IMG/VR virus record: IMGVR_UViG_3300020454_000103
Location: 1-21,083 of that record
Strand: one strand, 5' to 3'
DNA length: 21,083 nt
Origin: a virus
The position numbers and the translations under genes are program-made. The notes under the pieces were generated by a model. The model searched no databases. It had not been told where the DNA came from and was given only the letters and a program-made list of their open reading frames with translations. The first letter of the stretch is position 1. Each line of letters begins with the position of its first letter. Below, piece after piece: positions 9,955 to 21,083 of this stretch.

Positions 9955-10516
9955 ATTACCTTTTCTGCATGATTTTTTCTATACTGATATACCTAGTAAT
10001 AAAGATGAATTATTGCATGAAATAGAAAATAGCGAGTTAGATAAAAACCAAAATTTTTCATGGAATACTTTTTGCTCATTAAAGTTAGAACGACTTGATT
10101 TAGATAAAAAAATAGAATTATTGCAGCCGTCTTTGTCCAAGTTCTTACAAGAATTAAATATTGAAAGTGATCATATGAATGTTCAATTATGTGGTCTATG
10201 GAGAAATACGTATTATCAACATTCTTTTCAAGAAATTCATGATCATAGTCCTCATCATTTTTCAGGTGTTTTATTCTTGACGGATGAACAACCTGGTGAT
10301 AGTAAATTTTATTTTGTAAATAAACATTTAAGTGAGATTCCACAGGGTTGGCGAACACTTAGGAAAGGTGAAAGTATTGTTCATGCAGGTAGGTATTGGT
10401 TGAAAGCTGAACGAGGTCGAATTGTATTGTTTCCTTCTTATTTAATGCATGGTGTGACGGAACATCACTCAGATAAACCTAGACAGACAGTATCCTTTAA
10501 TTTTGATTTCCTTTAA
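9947..10516 (+). CDS. 2OG-Fe(II) oxygenase, HxH type, 189 aa
   Basis: Motifs: H98-D-H100 (EIHDHSPHHFSGVLFL), FPSYLMH168GV, and R179 in KPRQTVSFNF. This is the H-x-H variant in which most of the superfamily has H-x-D/E, as in the 2OG-FeII_Oxy_5 group, and the same as the partial gene at 2-598. The domain fills almost the whole protein, about the usual length. It probably hydroxylates or demethylates an unknown substrate. Its TAA overlaps the stop of the convergent prolyl-hydroxylase-like gene by 4 bases (10513-10516). Confidence 0.83.
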   Translation: MIELPFLHDFFYTDIPSNKDELLHEIENSELDKNQNFSWNTFCSLKLERLDLDKKIELLQPSLSKFLQELNIESDHMNVQLCGLWRNTYYQHSFQEIHDHSPHHFSGVLFLTDEQPGDSKFYFVNKHLSEIPQGWRTLRKGESIVHAGRYWLKAERGRIVLFPSYLMHGVTEHHSDKPRQTVSFNFDFL

Positions 10517-11163
10517 GTTGGGTTATAAAAACTACACCATCCAGTCGCAATATATTTATCTCCTTGATTAGGAGTGACTCCTTTGTGGGGATGAGTCCAA
10601 TAAGCAGGCCAAAGAACAACACGTCCTTCTTTAGGCTTAATAGTTGTGGCTTGATGAGGAAATTCTGTTCCTGATTGTGCGTCATTTAAGTAAATCATCC
10701 AAACCAACATACGATCACCAGCTATTAAGTGAGCTTCTGCCGTTAATGAATCTAGATTTTTTAATTCATGATTATTAATGTTTTTCCATCGAGAAGCATG
10801 TTCACAATGCAACGCATTATATCCTTCACCTTCTGAATAATATTGAATGTTATACCAAGAACGAAGCTTCCATGCTGCTAACTCATCTATGAATGGATAC
10901 TCTTTTTTATATCGTTCTATCGCCTTGGTTATTACTGGCAACAGAATCGTATTGAACTGACGAAATGGTGGATATGGTATTTGATTTTTAATCTCCAAGA
11001 AATCTACGTTAAAATCCATAGATGTCTTACCTTTCGTTTCAGTTCTATACATGAAAGGAGTGTTATCTGCATCGTTTAATTTATTGAAAGATCGAATGAC
11101 TGATTGACAGGAATTGGAATCTAATAAATCATCATAAATTTTAATAAAGGATAGATCAGGCAT
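10513..11163 (-). CDS. prolyl-4-hydroxylase-like 2OG-Fe(II) oxygenase, 216 aa
   Basis: This is a different 2OG subgroup from the + strand pair. H119-C-E121 (in YNALHCEHAS) gives an H-x-E iron motif. The distal site is in WPAYWTHPHKG (H191 or H193), and K203 in GDKYIATGW would replace the usual Arg as 2-oxoglutarate ligand, as in prolyl 4-hydroxylases. MLVWMIYLND-x(3)-GTEFPHQ is the core strand pair. The ATG lies within the end of the halogenase gene (ATGCCTGA, 8 bases), so it is last in that operon and may act on the same target. Confidence 0.85.
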   Translation of the reverse strand: MPDLSFIKIYDDLLDSNSCQSVIRSFNKLNDADNTPFMYRTETKGKTSMDFNVDFLEIKNQIPYPPFRQFNTILLPVITKAIERYKKEYPFIDELAAWKLRSWYNIQYYSEGEGYNALHCEHASRWKNINNHELKNLDSLTAEAHLIAGDRMLVWMIYLNDAQSGTEFPHQATTIKPKEGRVVLWPAYWTHPHKGVTPNQGDKYIATGWCSFYNPT

Positions 11164-12325
11164 TTTGTTTCAACTCTTCTGTCATCCCTTTGTGCCAATA
11201 CTTCAAACCAGATAGAGCCCAAGGACCATATCTAAAACTTGCAGGATTAACGGCTTCAGCAATTTTGACATCTTCTAATGTTTTGTTTGAAATAAACTCA
11301 CATGCATCATTAAATAAAGGCTCATGTATTAATAGATCCTTTGCATACTTCCAAAACGGAGTGTCATATTTAGAACCAAATTTATAGTGCCAAAGGATAA
11401 ACGTTTCCACTTGCTTAATATGTTGCTTGATATCTATGGAAGCATGATGAGCAGCCCAACCTTTATTGCCAATGAACTGATATGAATACCTAGCCCATGT
11501 TTGATAGGTATTAATTGCAGTCGCTTCCATTGGTTCGAGGAAGAATAATTTATTGCCATTTAAAATCACTCTGCCTTGAACAGGGTTCTTAGCAACGTAG
11601 TTATTAAAAGTTGAATGAGATGTTATTTCTACGTCAAAAATTTCTTGAAAGTTTTTTTCTGCATCCTCCCGCGAGGTGATTGTATCGTTATACAAGTAAC
11701 CAATAGATCTGGCATAGGAAGGAGACTCTGGATTAGTGGGAATTACAAAAGTCCACCCATCAGGAGTAGCAACATGCTGAGTAAATATATCTTGGATATC
11801 TTTCTTAGGTTTACCTAAAATTGCTGCATTAATTGGACTAATCAACGTGTCATACTCTTCTAAATCCTGAGGCTTCCCTCTGCAATCAATAACGTAATCA
11901 GCATCAATATCATCTAAGTTTTCGACTTTCTTATCTGTGACCTTAAATGCCTTTGAATTTAATACATATTCCTGCATCTCAGCAGGACAAAAATGTACTG
12001 CAATTTGATTGCCAGGGAAAGGATGAAAAATATCTTTATTAATCTTGCCCCAATCCTTATATAAAATTCCTAATTTAGGCGTTGCATGAATAGCGTTGGA
12101 ATAGTAATTAAATTCTGATTCGATAGCACTCCATAACAGTTGAGGTTGAAGAGGAAAAGTTGCTTGTCCAGCTAGTTCTGGGTTGATACTAGAATCATGA
12201 ATCAGTTCAATCTCTTCAATTCCTCTACCATTACCTCTCCACTTATCCATCTTGGATTGCCAAGAATACTCTAAAGCTGAAAAGCATCCTGCGTTACCAG
12301 CTCCAACGATAGAAACTTTAGTCAT
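11156..12325 (-). CDS. flavin-dependent (tryptophan-type) halogenase
   Basis: The FADH2-dependent halogenase fold is shown by GAGNAG (residues 8-13, FAD), GQATFP (53-58) and ATPKLGI with K84, the position of the catalytic lysine that holds the haloamine/hypohalous intermediate. GWTFVIP (190-196) is a variant of the diagnostic G-W-x-W-x-I-P (second Trp is Phe), and FLEPMEATAI (262-271) is the flavin/chloride loop with its Glu. At 389 aa it is clearly shorter than classical tryptophan halogenases (over 500), mostly missing C-terminal substrate region. Viral halogenases are known from marine cyanophages. AAAGG seven bases upstream of the ATG is a good ribosome site. It needs an FADH2 source; none is visible here. 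Confidence 0.88.
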   Translation of the reverse strand: MTKVSIVGAGNAGCFSALEYSWQSKMDKWRGNGRGIEEIELIHDSSINPELAGQATFPLQPQLLWSAIESEFNYYSNAIHATPKLGILYKDWGKINKDIFHPFPGNQIAVHFCPAEMQEYVLNSKAFKVTDKKVENLDDIDADYVIDCRGKPQDLEEYDTLISPINAAILGKPKKDIQDIFTQHVATPDGWTFVIPTNPESPSYARSIGYLYNDTITSREDAEKNFQEIFDVEITSHSTFNNYVAKNPVQGRVILNGNKLFFLEPMEATAINTYQTWARYSYQFIGNKGWAAHHASIDIKQHIKQVETFILWHYKFGSKYDTPFWKYAKDLLIHEPLFNDACEFISNKTLEDVKIAEAVNPASFRYGPWALSGLKYWHKGMTEELKQNA

Positions 12326-12408
12326 CGACGTACCTTTCTGATAGTGAGATATAAATTGGAATATGCAGCGATTACTAGTAAGACTAATAGAAACGTATTA
12401 ACTGTCAT
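12322..12408 (-). CDS. 28-aa single-span membrane peptide
   Basis: ATG at 12408, TGA at 12322-12324. The peptide MTVNTFLLVLLVIAAYSNLY plus a basic end (LTIRKVRR) is one transmembrane helix with a cytoplasmic Arg/Lys tail. The start overlaps the upstream stop as ATGA (12405-12408) and its own stop overlaps the halogenase ATG as ATGA (12322-12325). AAAGGAG lies about 7 bases before the ATG, one of the better ribosome-binding sites in the window. That double coupling plus a good Shine-Dalgarno argues it is translated. Function unknown; its size is like small photosynthetic or regulatory membrane peptides, but no match is recognised. Confidence 0.62.
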   Translation of the reverse strand: MTVNTFLLVLLVIAAYSNLYLTIRKVRR

Positions 12409-12725
12409 CTGCCATCTCCTTTAGTAAAGGTTTCTGAATCGGGTCCTGTAAATCGATCATCGGTTCCCCATTTGTTTCTTTGATATTCCATGAGGAACAA
12501 CAAGCAACAGCCGGCATGGGCGAGGTGGGAATATCCTGTTTCGGGGTCATTATCCTCTCCTCTCCACCAAGCGAAGAGGTGTCTGCATAGCGCGGCAAAG
12601 TAACGCCCCCACTCAGTTCCCCTACACCAGTTATTAGCACTATACTTTCTAGCGCCGTAACCGAGAACGTCAGCGATGTCTCCAACAGCTTGCCAAGGGA
12701 TGAGATCAAAGCGAGTCTTTTCCAT
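12405..12725 (-). CDS. dATP/dGTP diphosphohydrolase-like protein (DUF5664 type)
   Basis: KTRFDLIPWQAVGDIADVLG, then YGARKYSANNW, RGTEW-GRYFAALCRHLFAW, GEDNDPETGYSHLAHA and CLLFLMEY follow the layout of the phage DUF5664 / dATP-dGTP diphosphohydrolase N-terminal-like family. This is an all-helical relative of MazG-type pyrophosphatases, with acidic (E57, D58, D60, E62) and His (67, 70) residues suited to Mg2+ and nucleotide binding. The expected role is cleaving purine dNTPs to dNMPs to shape the nucleotide pool during replication. It is first in the operon leading to the halogenase, with a possible promoter just upstream. Confidence 0.75.
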   Translation of the reverse strand: MEKTRFDLIPWQAVGDIADVLGYGARKYSANNWCRGTEWGRYFAALCRHLFAWWRGEDNDPETGYSHLAHAGCCLLFLMEYQRNKWGTDDRFTGPDSETFTKGDGR

Positions 12726-13067: not shown

Positions 13068-13504
13068 TTAATTGCTTTTGCTTCTACTAAGCGTTGTGTT
13101 AGTTGCTTAAGTTCTAATCTATTACCTCGACGTGATTTGTTGTAATGGATCAAATCTGAAGCTGCAAAATCAGACAACATAAAACGGCAAGTCTTACCTG
13201 AATTCCATTCAGGATCAGTGTCAGTAGGATCCCACCATAAAACGAATTCAAAGGGAGGTTCCATTGTGGCTTTATACCCAGGTAACGCTTGGTGAAATTT
13301 ATGAATTCTCCCTGCTAGTTCCGTGATATTTGCATACTGATCTGAATTCAACATTTCTCTTTGAGCTGTATCTACAGGTAATGCGTCTTTCCATGTAATC
13401 CAAGAGTCATACACAATAGATCGCACAGTTAAATAAAGATTGCCATCAGGCGCCTTGAATTGATCGGGAGGATTCTCGAATAATTGATTATCAATATCAA
13501 GCAT
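13064..13504 (-). CDS. hypothetical protein, about 146 aa
   Basis: Not recognised. The frame is open up to 13606 but the first 30 codons lie over the preceding gene. ATG 13504 gives an 8-base ATGCTTGA overlap like other junctions here; ATG 13513 is nearly as good. It is a soluble protein, Trp/Tyr/Phe-rich in the middle (FEFVLWWDPTDTD), with a basic C-terminal helix (RRGNRLELKQLTQRL). It follows the methyltransferase-like gene directly and may be its partner. Confidence 0.6.
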   Translation of the reverse strand: MLDIDNQLFENPPDQFKAPDGNLYLTVRSIVYDSWITWKDALPVDTAQREMLNSDQYANITELAGRIHKFHQALPGYKATMEPPFEFVLWWDPTDTDPEWNSGKTCRFMLSDFAASDLIHYNKSRRGNRLELKQLTQRLVEAKAIN

Positions 13505-14141
13505 GGAAGTCATATGCTTTTCTGCAGCTAATTTGATACGATTTTTCCCAATCGTTCTCGCTGCTATATTCGTTGAAAACAATCCTGCCCATGGAATGAA
13601 AAACATTATGGAAACGAGATAGTCCTGTCTGGAATTGATCGTGTTGAACTGGCGGCAAATAAATGATTGCCGACCAATCTGAAGGAGATACGTTCCTAAA
13701 ATTTTCTAATTCATCGTCATACCACATAGGACGTAGTCTCTTAAATGGAATACAAACTGGGAAGTCCCAAATCCAAGGAGCTCTAATAATTGCTTCATTA
13801 TGTGCAATCCAAACGACCGCGTGTTCTATATGACCTGCTCTGTATTCTTTTAATGTCTTATTTAATAGTCGCCTAGTTAAGGCTGCACCTGTAGGCGCTC
13901 CAACAAAAACACGTTTAGAGGAACTATGAACATCATCTGCATACCATTCTTTTCTAACAATATCTTCTAATGTTTCTTCTTCTCGATCATAATATCTACT
14001 TGCTCCAACAAGTCTATTAATATCAACAGTTGAATAAGGATCAAGATCAATACTCCCTAAGACAGATTTAGCTCCTGCTACGACATCTGCAGGTGGAGCT
14101 AAATTGCACTTATCAGGTGAATGACGGATCTTGTCAATCAT
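13497..14141 (-). CDS. phage DNA adenine methyltransferase-like protein, catalytic motif lost
   Basis: The N-terminal half follows the phage N6-adenine methyltransferase family (Dam-type, PF05869-like): APPADVVAGAKSVLG, then SIDLDP (residues 30-35, the diagnostic strand), N42-x-x-VGASRYY and RVFV. At the place of the catalytic N/D-P-P-Y it has GAPTG (residues 81-85, bases 13887-13901), so the base-flipping and amino-group residues are missing. Later CIPFKRLRP and AIIYLPP also match family strands. It probably binds DNA or S-adenosylmethionine but is unlikely to methylate adenine in the usual way. Ends by overlapping the next gene. Confidence 0.7.
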   Translation of the reverse strand: MIDKIRHSPDKCNLAPPADVVAGAKSVLGSIDLDPYSTVDINRLVGASRYYDREEETLEDIVRKEWYADDVHSSSKRVFVGAPTGAALTRRLLNKTLKEYRAGHIEHAVVWIAHNEAIIRAPWIWDFPVCIPFKRLRPMWYDDELENFRNVSPSDWSAIIYLPPVQHDQFQTGLSRFHNVFHSMGRIVFNEYSSENDWEKSYQISCRKAYDFHA

Positions 14142-14143
14142 TC

Positions 14144-14593
14144 TTATAAAGCACTCATCAAGCTAGCAATTCTTTTAGCAGGATTATCTCTAGGTAATGT
14201 TGTGCAAGACGCTCCTGATTTATCTATCAATATGAGACATATCTCTTCTTTGAAATTTGCATTTTGGATTACTCCTAAAGCTTCTTTGCAGAAATCAACT
14301 ACCGAAGAATCTTTATTAGCTTCAGCATCTTTGAGATCCTGAGACAGCATGAATTCGTTGACGTAATTAGATCTATCCGGATGCTTCTTGTCTGCTACTA
14401 AATTTAATATTGTTGCACCTGCGCCAAGGTAACCGTAAGAGGTGTCAAAGCGTTGGATCATGTCAGACATAATCGCCTCACAAATCCTAATATTTAATTC
14501 TTTAGAGGCTTCTTTATTAGCTGAAGGAACCGTCTTGTCTATTAATTCTGGAAAGAATTTAACAAGAAACTCTGCTGGTTGAGGTCTCGCCAC
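14144..14593 (-). CDS. hypothetical protein, 149 aa
   Basis: Not recognised. It begins with GTG 14593, overlapping the preceding small gene by 35 bases; the start is therefore the weakest part. It is predicted helical and soluble, with IMSDMIQRFD, YLGAGATILNLVAD and a Cys-containing C-terminal part (EEICLILIDKSGASC). It ends 2 bases before the methyltransferase-like ATG at 14141, so the pair is coupled. It may be a partner of that protein. Confidence 0.62.
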   Translation of the reverse strand: MARPQPAEFLVKFFPELIDKTVPSANKEASKELNIRICEAIMSDMIQRFDTSYGYLGAGATILNLVADKKHPDRSNYVNEFMLSQDLKDAEANKDSSVVDFCKEALGVIQNANFKEEICLILIDKSGASCTTLPRDNPAKRIASLMSAL

Positions 14594-14753
14594 GAAGGAA
14601 ATTGCGTTGAATATCTACTAACAAGGAGTCGCAACGCTCTTCTGCATTTTCCGCTAAAGGTTTCAAATGTTTGAGTTCAGGATCTTGAGATATTGAACCG
14701 ATTAAATGACTAAGGGCGTCATGTATTTCGGTCATGTCAATTACATTATCCAT
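14559..14753 (-). CDS. small acidic helical protein, 64 aa
   Basis: ATG at 14753 shares a base with the ThyX-like stop (TAATG). Mostly helical, acidic in the first half (MTEIHDALSHLIGSISQDPE). No family recognised. Its coupling on one side to the ThyX-like gene and overlap on the other with the 149-aa gene suggest it is a genuine member of this chain. Confidence 0.58.
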   Translation of the reverse strand: MDNVIDMTEIHDALSHLIGSISQDPELKHLKPLAENAEERCDSLLVDIQRNFLRGETSTSRVSC

Positions 14754-15523
14754 TAGACACTCAAATCTGTTTTTGAACGGTGGGTATTAGACCACCATGA
14801 ATAAACTTCTGGAACCCAAGCGTGAACATGATCAGCAATAAGGTCTGCTAAACTCTTTGTTTCGTAAGACCTATTAGGTCTCGAACAGCTATCGAGTAAT
14901 CGTAGCCATGCACGAAGACTACCTGAAGCTGTAACATTCTGCAACATACACATCGTTAATAACTGTTGTGCTTGTATAGCACTAGCACCTGCTTCTCTGT
15001 ATCCGTTGTAATCAATAGCTGAAGAATATGCAGAAGCTAACTGGTTGTCGTGATCCGCTTCACTCCATGGGTGACGATGTCCTGTGTAATCTGGATAATT
15101 TCCTGGGCATCTAGAGTGAAATAAATTTTCTAATGGATAATTCTTCTCTTTCACTGCGAGACGAGTGTTTTCAGCAGCTTCATATAAGGGTTGCAGACTG
15201 AATTGCATATCATTTCTTTCTGTGCAAATTTCATGCAATGTACTATGGTCTGACTTTATAAATAAAGATAAGTGAGGGTGTTCTAAAGCAGCAAATGTTC
15301 CCCAAGAAGGATGCGTCTGACTAGTGTGTCGATAATGACTCGTTATAAGGTTCCCGCAAGTGTCTTCTGCAAACGCATGCTCTTGTACATCTTTTTCTTT
15401 TTCTATATCGTCTATCAGGTCACCATGTTTATTCATATATAAAGCTGTATATATTAATCTTTGAGGCATTTCGGTCGCTGCAATTCGTTTGACCACAAAC
15501 GATTCAATTGCTGATTTGGTCAA
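14753..15523 (-). CDS. ThyX-like flavin-dependent thymidylate synthase homologue, degenerate active site
   Basis: The start is TTG 15523, with GTG 15499 as an alternative. The backbone follows phage ThyX: MPQRLIYTALY (residues 19-29), ALEHPHLSLFIKSDHSTLHE (79-98), then SGSLRAWLRLLDS (200-212) and AWVPEVYSWW (235-244). In ThyX the stretch after the EH is R-H-R-x7-S, which binds FAD and dUMP; here it is C-T-E-R-N-D-M-Q-F-S-L-Q (100-111), and the late AQ-x-E site reads RSYE. Normal ThyX makes dTMP from dUMP with methylene-tetrahydrofolate and FADH2. This one may act on a changed substrate or be a non-catalytic partner. The fold assignment is solid; thymidylate synthase activity is doubtful. Confidence 0.75.
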   Translation of the reverse strand: MTKSAIESFVVKRIAATEMPQRLIYTALYMNKHGDLIDDIEKEKDVQEHAFAEDTCGNLITSHYRHTSQTHPSWGTFAALEHPHLSLFIKSDHSTLHEICTERNDMQFSLQPLYEAAENTRLAVKEKNYPLENLFHSRCPGNYPDYTGHRHPWSEADHDNQLASAYSSAIDYNGYREAGASAIQAQQLLTMCMLQNVTASGSLRAWLRLLDSCSRPNRSYETKSLADLIADHVHAWVPEVYSWWSNTHRSKTDLSV

Positions 15524-15605: not shown

Positions 15606-16436
15606 TTACGCGTTATCTTCGTTGCCGTAAAGCTTGTCATAGAAGTAATTAAACATTTCTTTTGGATCTTGATAATCTGGAATATTTAATTTGTTACCAA
15701 TAACCTTACCATCATCGTCACGTTTGTAAGTTCTGCCTTGGTGATAGTGCAATGCTGCCCCTGTTTCTAAAGTTCCTAGGTCAACATTTGCTTTGCTTTT
15801 AGGTAGATAGCTTGAATAGAAATGATCAGTCATCCTATTACCAGCACTAGACACAGCGTCTATGCCATCGTTGATCTCATACTCTGGCAGTGTTGGAGCA
15901 AAGTTACCCCAATCCATATCTTTCCAGTCAGGATTTGGACTAGGAGTTGGAGTTGGAGTTGGTTTTGGATCTGGATCTTCAGGTCCAGGTGTTGGCATTA
16001 TTGGTGTTGTGCCGCTTTCGTTGTGTTTCTTCCACTCAGGAGAACGACGAATATTCGCTAGGACTTGATCTCTAGTTTGAGCATTATTCTTCATGTCATT
16101 CAACCAATAGCTCCGCCCTTCGTCTCCTGCGTCACGTCCTAGTTCTGATTTATAAGTATCATTCAACCATTTTTCATTGCTTAACCCGATATCTCTTTCA
16201 ATATCTGCTTTAGATTTGCCACTACGGAATTCATCGCCCCAGTAGTTGAGACCTTCCTCCCCAACATCTCTACCTAGATTCTGCTTATAAACATCTCTAA
16301 GCCAACCAGCTGTAGAAGGATCTTTAGTCCATGCATCTGATCTTTCTATGGCAGCTTCTGCTGCACTTTTCCCTCCTAATGCGGATGCTGCAGATTTAAT
16401 TGTGCTGGACAATATACCTGGCGTTAGCAAGACCAT
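15606..16436 (-). CDS. protein with two DUF4214 repeats and PT-linker, 276 aa
   Basis: Residues about 44-88 and 89-135 are two repeats of the DUF4214 pattern W-L-x-x-x-Y-K-x-x-L-G-R-D-x-x-E-x-G-x-x-Y-W, followed by SPEW. A Pro/Thr linker (PTPTPTPSPNPD, around residues 159-170) leads to a unique C-terminal domain of about 105 residues, rich in Tyr, Asp and Asn. DUF4214 domains occur in bacterial surface and phage proteins and resemble the short linker modules of phycobilisomes; their function is not settled. One of three neighbouring DUF4214 genes; probably virion or attachment related. Confidence 0.78.
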   Translation of the reverse strand: MVLLTPGILSSTIKSAASALGGKSAAEAAIERSDAWTKDPSTAGWLRDVYKQNLGRDVGEEGLNYWGDEFRSGKSKADIERDIGLSNEKWLNDTYKSELGRDAGDEGRSYWLNDMKNNAQTRDQVLANIRRSPEWKKHNESGTTPIMPTPGPEDPDPKPTPTPTPSPNPDWKDMDWGNFAPTLPEYEINDGIDAVSSAGNRMTDHFYSSYLPKSKANVDLGTLETGAALHYHQGRTYKRDDDGKVIGNKLNIPDYQDPKEMFNYFYDKLYGNEDNA

Positions 16437-18327: not shown

Positions 18328-18819
18328 TTATTCTTCTGGCTCTTCTAAATCGCCTGAGAAAGGAATACGATGAACTGCTATACCTGCTTCTACACACATT
18401 TCTCTTGCCTTATCAAATGATTCTTGCCATCTATAAGGCTCAACAAAATCTGGCACTATAATCTGAGCGATATCAGCTTGAATTAGAACTGAAGCACATT
18501 GACTACATGTCATAAGAGGCCATACATACATCGTTGCACCTGCTAAACAAACTCCATTTCTTGCAGCAAATGCTACACAATTCATCTCTGCATGCACAGT
18601 CATAGCAAGCCTTGTCTCTCTATTCTTAAGTCTTGAATCTGAGTCGGTTAACCCTCTAGGAAGTCCGTTGTAACCTTCGACTAAGATACGTCTATCTCTA
18701 ACAGCCACCGCTCCGACTTTCGTACTGGGGTCTTTTGACCATCCTGCGAACATTCGAGCTGCATGTAAAAACCGTTGATCCCAATTCTTTGGTGTTTTCG
18801 GCGCTTTTAGAGATGACAT
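18328..18819 (-). CDS. deoxycytidylate (dCMP) deaminase
   Basis: Zn-dependent CMP/dCMP deaminase family: KVGAVAVRDRRILVEGYNGL, then H76-A-E78 (zinc ligand and proton shuttle) and T-C105-S-Q-C108 (the P-C-x-x-C motif with Thr in place of Pro). It would deaminate dCMP to dUMP, the substrate for thymidylate synthases, supporting phage DNA synthesis. At 163 aa it is the usual phage length. First gene of the long minus-strand block on this side (13064-18819). It would feed a ThyX; whether the degenerate ThyX-like protein uses this dUMP is open. Confidence 0.88.
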   Translation of the reverse strand: MSSLKAPKTPKNWDQRFLHAARMFAGWSKDPSTKVGAVAVRDRRILVEGYNGLPRGLTDSDSRLKNRETRLAMTVHAEMNCVAFAARNGVCLAGATMYVWPLMTCSQCASVLIQADIAQIIVPDFVEPYRWQESFDKAREMCVEAGIAVHRIPFSGDLEEPEE

Positions 18820-19882: not shown

Positions 19883-21083
19883 TCAGACTGGACCAAGCCA
19901 AATACGCTGACTTTTTCCATTTCTTTTAATTCTTTTCGGTTTGTAGCCTAATCTTTTTAAGCAATCAGTTACAGGAGTCGTCATTTGATTTTGCTGAGCG
20001 ACATTAACTTCTACCCAAGCAAATAAATCTGCAAGGACAACGTAGGATCGCCCTTGATAATATCCACTGCTATTCGTTTCTAAAGCACGAGTAACAACAG
20101 CATCTATAGGCGAGTCACGAGTGAATGAATCTTGATAGTCAGCAATATAACTAAGCTCATAACTAGAGAAGACATGTACAGGATTATCTAAATAAGCCTT
20201 ATATGCTGCAGCCCAAATAGAATCTCTATCTTGCTTCAGCCTGTCTAAGTCAATGATCTTTAAATTAGGATCTTCCTTGGAAGGTACTTTACCTTCAACA
20301 ATGATTGGCATAAATCTACGATTGCCAGTTGGATCGCACAGGAAGTCTGAGTTATTTGTTGCTGCTGCTAAAACAAATGCACGAGGATAAGACTTTTCAT
20401 TCTCATACTTACGAGCAGACCTGTCTACGGAAACAGAGACTAAGTTTTTCAATTCTTCTGAATACTTTCTCTTGCAGTAACGTTCGAATTCATCCATAAC
20501 GACAACAAAGCCAGCATGCAAAGCATGAGGTTTTTCTTTTAAATATTCAATACCTTGCTGCATAGTTACGACCCACGGATAAGTGCCAGGATCGTCTAAA
20601 GATGGAGGTGTTAAGTATTGGAAAAAGGTTGTTTTACCACAATTTTGGCTGCCGATTAAAATTGGCATCCAGTCATGGCGACATCCAGGAGTGAGAACCC
20701 TTGCGACTGCACCAATCAGAAAACGTTTAATAACAACATCTGCTAATAGGTTTCCGCAAGGCATTACAGGATTCTGTATATCGTCTTTTGGTACTCCTAA
20801 TATTTCAGATGCAATCCTATCGAAGTAATTGCAAGGACTAGCACTAGCTGCACATCTTTCTAAATATGCTTTAACTGGATGGAATCGATTCTCATAACCA
20901 ATAACACCTGCTAAATCGAAGACTAAAGTCTTAGGAAAAACTTGTCCTTGTCCTCGAGATATGTAGACATATGCTTGAGAAATATCATGTATCTCTCTCG
21001 GCTGGTGCTCAGGACCATAAACCAATTGTTGGCTCATACAATTAAGTCTTAAGCCGTTGTAATAGTTATCAAGCAGATCTTTA
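19883..21083 (-). CDS. VapE/virulence-associated E-type P-loop helicase (5' end outside window)
   Basis: The frame stays open to the window end beyond the ATG at 21037; upstream residues (YYNGLRLN) look like normal family sequence, so that ATG is internal. Counted from it: Walker A GSQNCGKTT (129-137), Walker B FVVVMDEFE (177-185), sensor TNN (227-229) and the Arg finger pair in NRRFMPI (239-245). This is the VirE/VapE P-loop domain, a DNA helicase often fused to or partnered with a primase. It probably unwinds phage DNA for replication. The C-terminal part (after residue 300) looks like a winged-helix module (TTPVTDCLKRLGYKPKRIKR). A terminator follows. Confidence 0.85.
   Translation of the reverse strand, partial: KDLLDNYYNGLRLNCMSQQLVYGPEHQPREIHDISQAYVYISRGQGQVFPKTLVFDLAGVIGYENRFHPVKAYLERCAASASPCNYFDRIASEILGVPKDDIQNPVMPCGNLLADVVIKRFLIGAVARVLTPGCRHDWMPILIGSQNCGKTTFFQYLTPPSLDDPGTYPWVVTMQQGIEYLKEKPHALHAGFVVVMDEFERYCKRKYSEELKNLVSVSVDRSARKYENEKSYPRAFVLAAATNNSDFLCDPTGNRRFMPIIVEGKVPSKEDPNLKIIDLDRLKQDRDSIWAAAYKAYLDNPVHVFSSYELSYIADYQDSFTRDSPIDAVVTRALETNSSGYYQGRSYVVLADLFAWVEVNVAQQNQMTTPVTDCLKRLGYKPKRIKRNGKSQRIWLGPV

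Follow-up and report, generated by a model that had tools for sequence, protein, structure and literature searches.

Gene content and gene order of the locus

The window, a virus record of 21,083 bases, encodes on its minus strand a protein derived from the thymidylate synthase ThyX in which the active site of the enzyme is missing (Table 1). The open reading frame has no internal stop codons, and its stop codon shares one base with the next start at position 14753. The same block of genes was found in related loci, named here intact or degenerate after the state of the ThyX active site: primase-helicase, a small gene, dCMP deaminase, a small gene, HNH and DUF4214-type genes, followed by ThyX, the FFPEL protein, the methyltransferase-like protein, a small gene and the dGTP hydrolase. 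The open frame, the stop/start overlap and the gene order conserved in relatives agree with the sequence-only reading of this DNA, which had described the gene as intact and part of an operon.

Table 1. Features of the thyX-like locus in the window and zinc-ligand-less deaminases in related loci.
Feature	Position	Strand	Remarks
Predicted ThyX-derived protein, thymidylate synthase active site missing	14753..15523	-	256 aa, TTG start
Former catalytic segment, residues 101-114	15182..15223	-	TERNDMQFSLQPLY; cyanophage ThyX has THRVGVSFDVQSQR
EHP, residues 81-83	15275..15283	-	H82 corresponds to H59 of T. maritima; kept in 20/20 degenerate relatives
RSYE, residues 218-221, at the AQxE site	14861..14872	-	E kept in 20/20 relatives, Q in 0/20
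64 aa ORF	14559..14753	-	one-base overlap with the thyX-like stop; adjoins the thyX-like gene in near relatives too
ARPxxxxLxxxFFPEL protein	14144..14593	-	next downstream in syntenic loci
N6-adenine methyltransferase-like protein, DPPY/NPPY motif missing	13497..14141	-	
dATP/dGTP diphosphohydrolase N-terminal domain protein	12405..12725	-	
DUF4214 protein	15606..16436	-	directly upstream of the thyX-like gene
dCMP deaminase, zinc motifs intact (makes dUMP)	18328..18819	-	upstream, same gene order
VapE-like primase-helicase part	19883..21037	-	anchor of the conserved block
dCMP deaminase without zinc ligands	L026:3422, L027:3404, L028:3404, L060:991		ORF open

Relatives were sought by scans of viral and genome contigs. 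Using the neighbouring dCMP deaminase as an anchor, more loci were detected, with an intact thyX, a degenerate one or none at the slot. A degenerate contig of 80.5 kb and an intact contig of 85.2 kb share 52 ORF matches, including a terminase (81% identical) and a portal-like protein (73%). Both proteins have matches in cyanophage S-EIV1, at 52% for the terminase and 47% for the portal-like protein, so that picocyanobacterial hosts appear likely. An archaeal origin, raised by two hits filed under “Euryarchaeota archaeon” MAGs (L050, L051), was rejected: both carry the block in the same phage gene order and were taken as probably mis-binned phage DNA.

A second thymidylate synthase was likewise rejected, as neither ThyA nor a second Thy1 was detected in the contigs of the kin, which reach 85 kb, the Synechococcus elongatus control being positive. 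PurZ (2-aminoadenine) was not found in eight contigs, and the search for a dUTPase gave nothing above the cut-off, with a single weak match in contig G012.

The methyltransferase-like protein has an IDLDPYS start and weakly resembles CAPAM, RlmJ and T4 Dam in fold. The DPPY/NPPY motif is absent in 13/13 members, and a distant relative is present in S-EIV1.

Homology of the window protein to ThyX

The window protein scores above the cut-off of Pfam Thy1 (3e-7; 30.8 bits, cut-off 24.8). With 32.1 bits it remains far under the cut-off of 87.9 bits of the NCBI thyX equivalog TIGR02170, as do the degenerate copies (30-39 bits), whereas the intact orthologues tested (L024, L049, L026) all pass with 130.6-137.3 bits. 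A profile-profile alignment with intact phage ThyX (hhalign) runs end to end with E=6.7e-42. Both Pfam and hhalign, as well as the Foldseek matches given below, point to ThyX in homology and fold. The segments previously proposed to align with phage ThyX are located at residues 81-83 (EHP), 202-211 (SLRAWLRLLD) and 236-239 (WVPE).

The closest named relatives are cyanophage ThyX with 22-26% identity over the full length. The enzymes of S-SRM01, ACG-2014f, S-CAM7, S-H1 and S-CBWM1 are collinear with the window protein over 94-96% of the length, but their active site is complete. The ThyX of kin phages (L024, L025, L049, L026-L029, L075, L083, L085) occupies the same slot of the block and has the N-terminal TEMPQ-type and the C-terminal WL..LD / W.PE blocks in common with the window protein; unlike the latter, it has kept RTHR...QSxRY, AQxE, R147 and R174 (T. 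maritima numbering). Neither the window protein nor the degenerate profile gave a direct sequence match to a solved ThyX, and residues were therefore mapped to the T. maritima numbering via intact cyanophage ThyX.

Loss of the active-site residues

Aligned to cyanophage ThyX, QARTHRVGVSFDVQSQRY of the window protein corresponds to EICTERNDMQFSLQPLYE. The earlier proposal that the ThyX signature is replaced is confirmed, with no intact copy elsewhere in the protein. The motif form R-H-R-x7-S on which it was based does not hold for the nearest phage ThyX, which reads R-T-H-R-x-G-x-S-F-D-x-Q-S-x-R-Y, so that T and R of TER are ancestral. The S of FSLQ is not the catalytic serine.

Within the motif the first arginine of the phage form is replaced by C100, H79 by E102, S88 by P112, R90 by Y114 and Y91 by E115. 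Further replacements are T76 for H53, E98 for Q75, Q186 for R147, C213 for R174 and S219 for Q180; the latter falls into the RSYE stretch, which had correctly been assigned to the AQ-x-E site. E58, H59, R80, R165 and E182 are retained. The roles assigned to H53, R147 and Q75 are those known from T. maritima structures. Of the FAD contacts, the window protein has thus lost H53 and H79 and kept R80 and R165, while most relatives also lack R80. The dUMP contacts S88, R90, R147, R174 and Q75 and the Tyr91 lid have all been replaced in the window protein. In M. tuberculosis ThyX, dUMP is contacted by Ser105, Arg107 and Arg199 with Tyr108 as lid (PMC6514825), matched here to the T. maritima sites by motif spacing. 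The window protein shares its predicted fold with the flavin-dependent thymidylate synthases of T. maritima and M. tuberculosis but, unlike them, lacks H53, H79, S88, R90, Y91, R147 and R174.

A regular expression search detected none of RHR-x7-S, RTHR...S-x-RY and AQ-x-E anywhere in the window protein. Together with the collinear profile alignment, this ruled out a misplaced alignment with the motif intact elsewhere, and the refined alignment placed no intact R-H-R and serine at another position. It is therefore extremely improbable that the protein is a working thymidylate synthase with its residues placed differently: despite the Pfam Thy1 match, S88, R90, R174, the Y91 lid, H53 and R147 are gone with no equivalent elsewhere in the protein, and the thyX equivalog cut-off is failed.

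The loss is shared by relatives ranging from 100% down to ~35% identity to the window protein; the scans also recovered intact ThyX at 31-36%, and for the kin members compared the identity is 31-38%. We scored 15 sites in 20 distinct degenerate and 11 intact sequences. All 15 are kept in every intact sequence (11/11), whereas eight (H53, the first R of RTHR, H79, R90, Y91, R147, R174 and Q180) are lost in 20/20 degenerate ones. H59, E182 and often R165 remain in the degenerate copies, so that some ligand binding is possible. Compared with other residues invariant in intact ThyX, active-site residues are not lost in significant excess (Fisher p=0.41); the case hence rests on the identity of the lost residues and their complete loss in 20/20 copies rather than on enrichment. 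Independent contigs show the loss again, all of them with an open frame, which ruled out a sequencing or assembly quirk.

Among the intact loci, L061 (4792-6528) carries a ThyX split by an intein-like insertion of more than 300 aa just ahead of the EHP region.

Phylogeny and selection

The degenerate proteins form one clade in the protein tree with a support of 100/100, which is still 89/78 after removal of the trait columns, and the phages carrying them form one clade (98/98) in a tree of the HNH and methyltransferase-like proteins. The variant thus constitutes a clade of its own, a possibility raised by the sequence-only reading. In the tree of the neighbouring proteins the sister clade of the degenerate phages, joined to them at a node of 87/84, has no thyX at the slot, so that some phages can evidently do without the function.

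Synteny and the residue table identify the degenerate genes as orthologues of thyX without the catalytic residues, and purifying selection acts on them: dN/dS was 0.05-0.16 in 16 degenerate pairs, compared with 0.03-0.12 in intact ThyX pairs and ~0.02-0.05 in most pairs of helicase and deaminase, these values being rough as several dS are near saturation (some degenerate pairs have a dS of ~1). In close pairs some constraint is still visible in the former catalytic stretch. When the intact loci L024 and L049 are compared, no other protein of the block is as conserved as ThyX (68%; helicase 45%, deaminase 61%). Between the window and the intact L024 it reaches only 38%, compared with 65% for the helicase and 72% for the deaminase. 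The acceleration is therefore confined to the gene whose active site has been lost.

The empty slot of the sister clade and the evolution faster than that of most neighbours could suggest a gene in decay, on its way from loss of activity to loss of the gene. We consider this very unlikely, since dN/dS lies far under 1 and 20 copies of a single clade diverged to ~35-40% identity all have open frames without stop codons or frameshifts (20/20). The earlier assumption that the gene is kept for some use is thus supported by the 20 relatives, their conserved gene order and the low dN/dS.

Between L024 and L025, thyX has a dS of 1.65 and most neighbouring genes one of 0.07-0.22, a contrast that looks like the replacement of thyX alone by recombination.

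Predicted structure and the possibility of a changed chemistry

An AlphaFold2 model of the window protein based on 18 sequences reached a mean pLDDT of 72, its N-terminal third being poor (pLDDT <50 for residues 18-80). All top PDB matches of this model in Foldseek were ThyX or PolB (E down to 5.9e-8, TM ~0.41-0.63), and we infer that the ThyX fold persists in the degenerate protein. The best match, PolB, is a UMP/dUMP methylase of Streptomyces cacaoi and sets a precedent for a ThyX relative acting on another substrate; in contrast to what we propose for the window protein, it is an active enzyme.

The main rival to a non-catalytic role would accordingly be an enzyme that has kept the fold and some cofactor contacts and built a new active site for another substrate or reaction. 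The PolB match and the purifying selection are compatible with it, and so are five residues (N142, P144, P152, R215, D231) in which 11 degenerate members agree with one another but not with intact ThyX. However, the lost sites were refilled differently by sublineage (R174, for instance, by C, H, N, V, A or S), and replacements this dissimilar argue against one shared new chemistry and leave no common new catalytic set. Taking furthermore into account that the FAD-contact positions H53, the RHR segment and R174 are lost too, and that the core is completely gone in L062 (see below), a changed chemistry appears possible on these comparisons but is not favoured, and we regard it as unlikely. Of the two uses suggested earlier for the protein, an altered substrate or a scaffold, the latter would fit better.

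Proposed role as a pseudoenzyme

A gene that descends from ThyX, occupies the same slot, has lost the residues handling dUMP and FAD and retains an intact frame under purifying selection is probably best explained as a pseudoenzyme of ThyX origin, retained for binding or as a scaffold and not for catalysis. The ancestor would be an ordinary phage ThyX at this genomic slot, of which the window gene is the positional orthologue. Thymidylate synthase catalysis would have been lost, most simply once, on the stem of a phage clade that is related to S-EIV1 and probably infects cyanobacteria. Retention as a pseudoenzyme would have followed, the protein presumably acting by binding a partner rather than by chemistry, and dTMP would then be supplied by the host enzyme. 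The likeliest partners may be the phage's own block proteins (dCMP deaminase, dGTP/dATP hydrolase, primase-helicase), with the host ThyX as an alternative.

In this version of the partner model, phage subunits would mix into the tetramer of the cyanobacterial enzyme, which could thereby be activated, stabilised or inhibited. ThyX active sites are located between subunits, the kin belong to the cyanophages related to S-EIV1, and the positive Synechococcus elongatus control shows that ThyX can be used by cyanobacteria. Dead paralogues activating a partner do exist, as in the trypanosome deoxyhypusine synthase (PMC3663545). Nevertheless, the distance between the window protein and canonical bacterial ThyX makes mixing into the host tetramer doubtful, and we consider such a modulator rather improbable.

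For the pseudoenzyme role in general, the deoxyhypusine synthase paralogue is a precedent of a dead enzyme-derived protein kept as a partner subunit (PMC3663545). It is an unrelated protein whose partner and activation are proven, whereas a partner of the window protein is a proposal. The open-licence papers searched yielded no description of a lineage of ThyX pseudoenzymes. If the proposed role is correct, “thyX” calls in phage surveys would not always be evidence for phage thymidylate synthesis. The slot would furthermore hold a natural series of intact, degenerate, core-deleted and absent genes, suited to asking what a nucleotide enzyme contributes to a phage apart from its reaction.

Pathway proteins without catalytic residues in other lineages

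In L062 (5592-6029) the slot encodes a ThyX of 145 aa which matches residues 5-86 and 177-236 of L024, a core of ~90 aa being deleted in frame. This is a single contig in which the adjoining block from the FFPEL protein to the dGTP hydrolase is inverted. In L026, L027, L028 and L060 the ThyX is intact and the dCMP deaminase lacks its zinc ligands (the H of HAE and both Cys of CxxC); for this deaminase dN/dS between L026 and L027 is 0.12. The L062 ThyX and the zinc-less deaminases indicate that pathway proteins have been retained past the loss of catalytic residues in more than one lineage.

One clade combines a presumably dead ThyX with a live deaminase and another a live ThyX with a zinc-less deaminase, and in both these genes lie beside a methyltransferase-like protein without the catalytic motif. 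Tentatively, this could mean that enzymes acting one after the other in dTMP synthesis are retained as scaffolds whatever their activity, the block being an assembly selected for shape and not for flux, although we doubt that it extends so far.

Further open reading frames in the window

A tryptophan halogenase homologue (11156-12325, minus strand; Pfam 2e-24) adjoins a 2OG-Fe(II) oxygenase (10513-11163). An ORF of 103 aa (12398-12709, minus strand) overlaps the gene of the dGTP hydrolase in a different frame and occurs with similar length in L003, L004, L019 and L021, a recurrence that codon constraint may have produced as a side effect.
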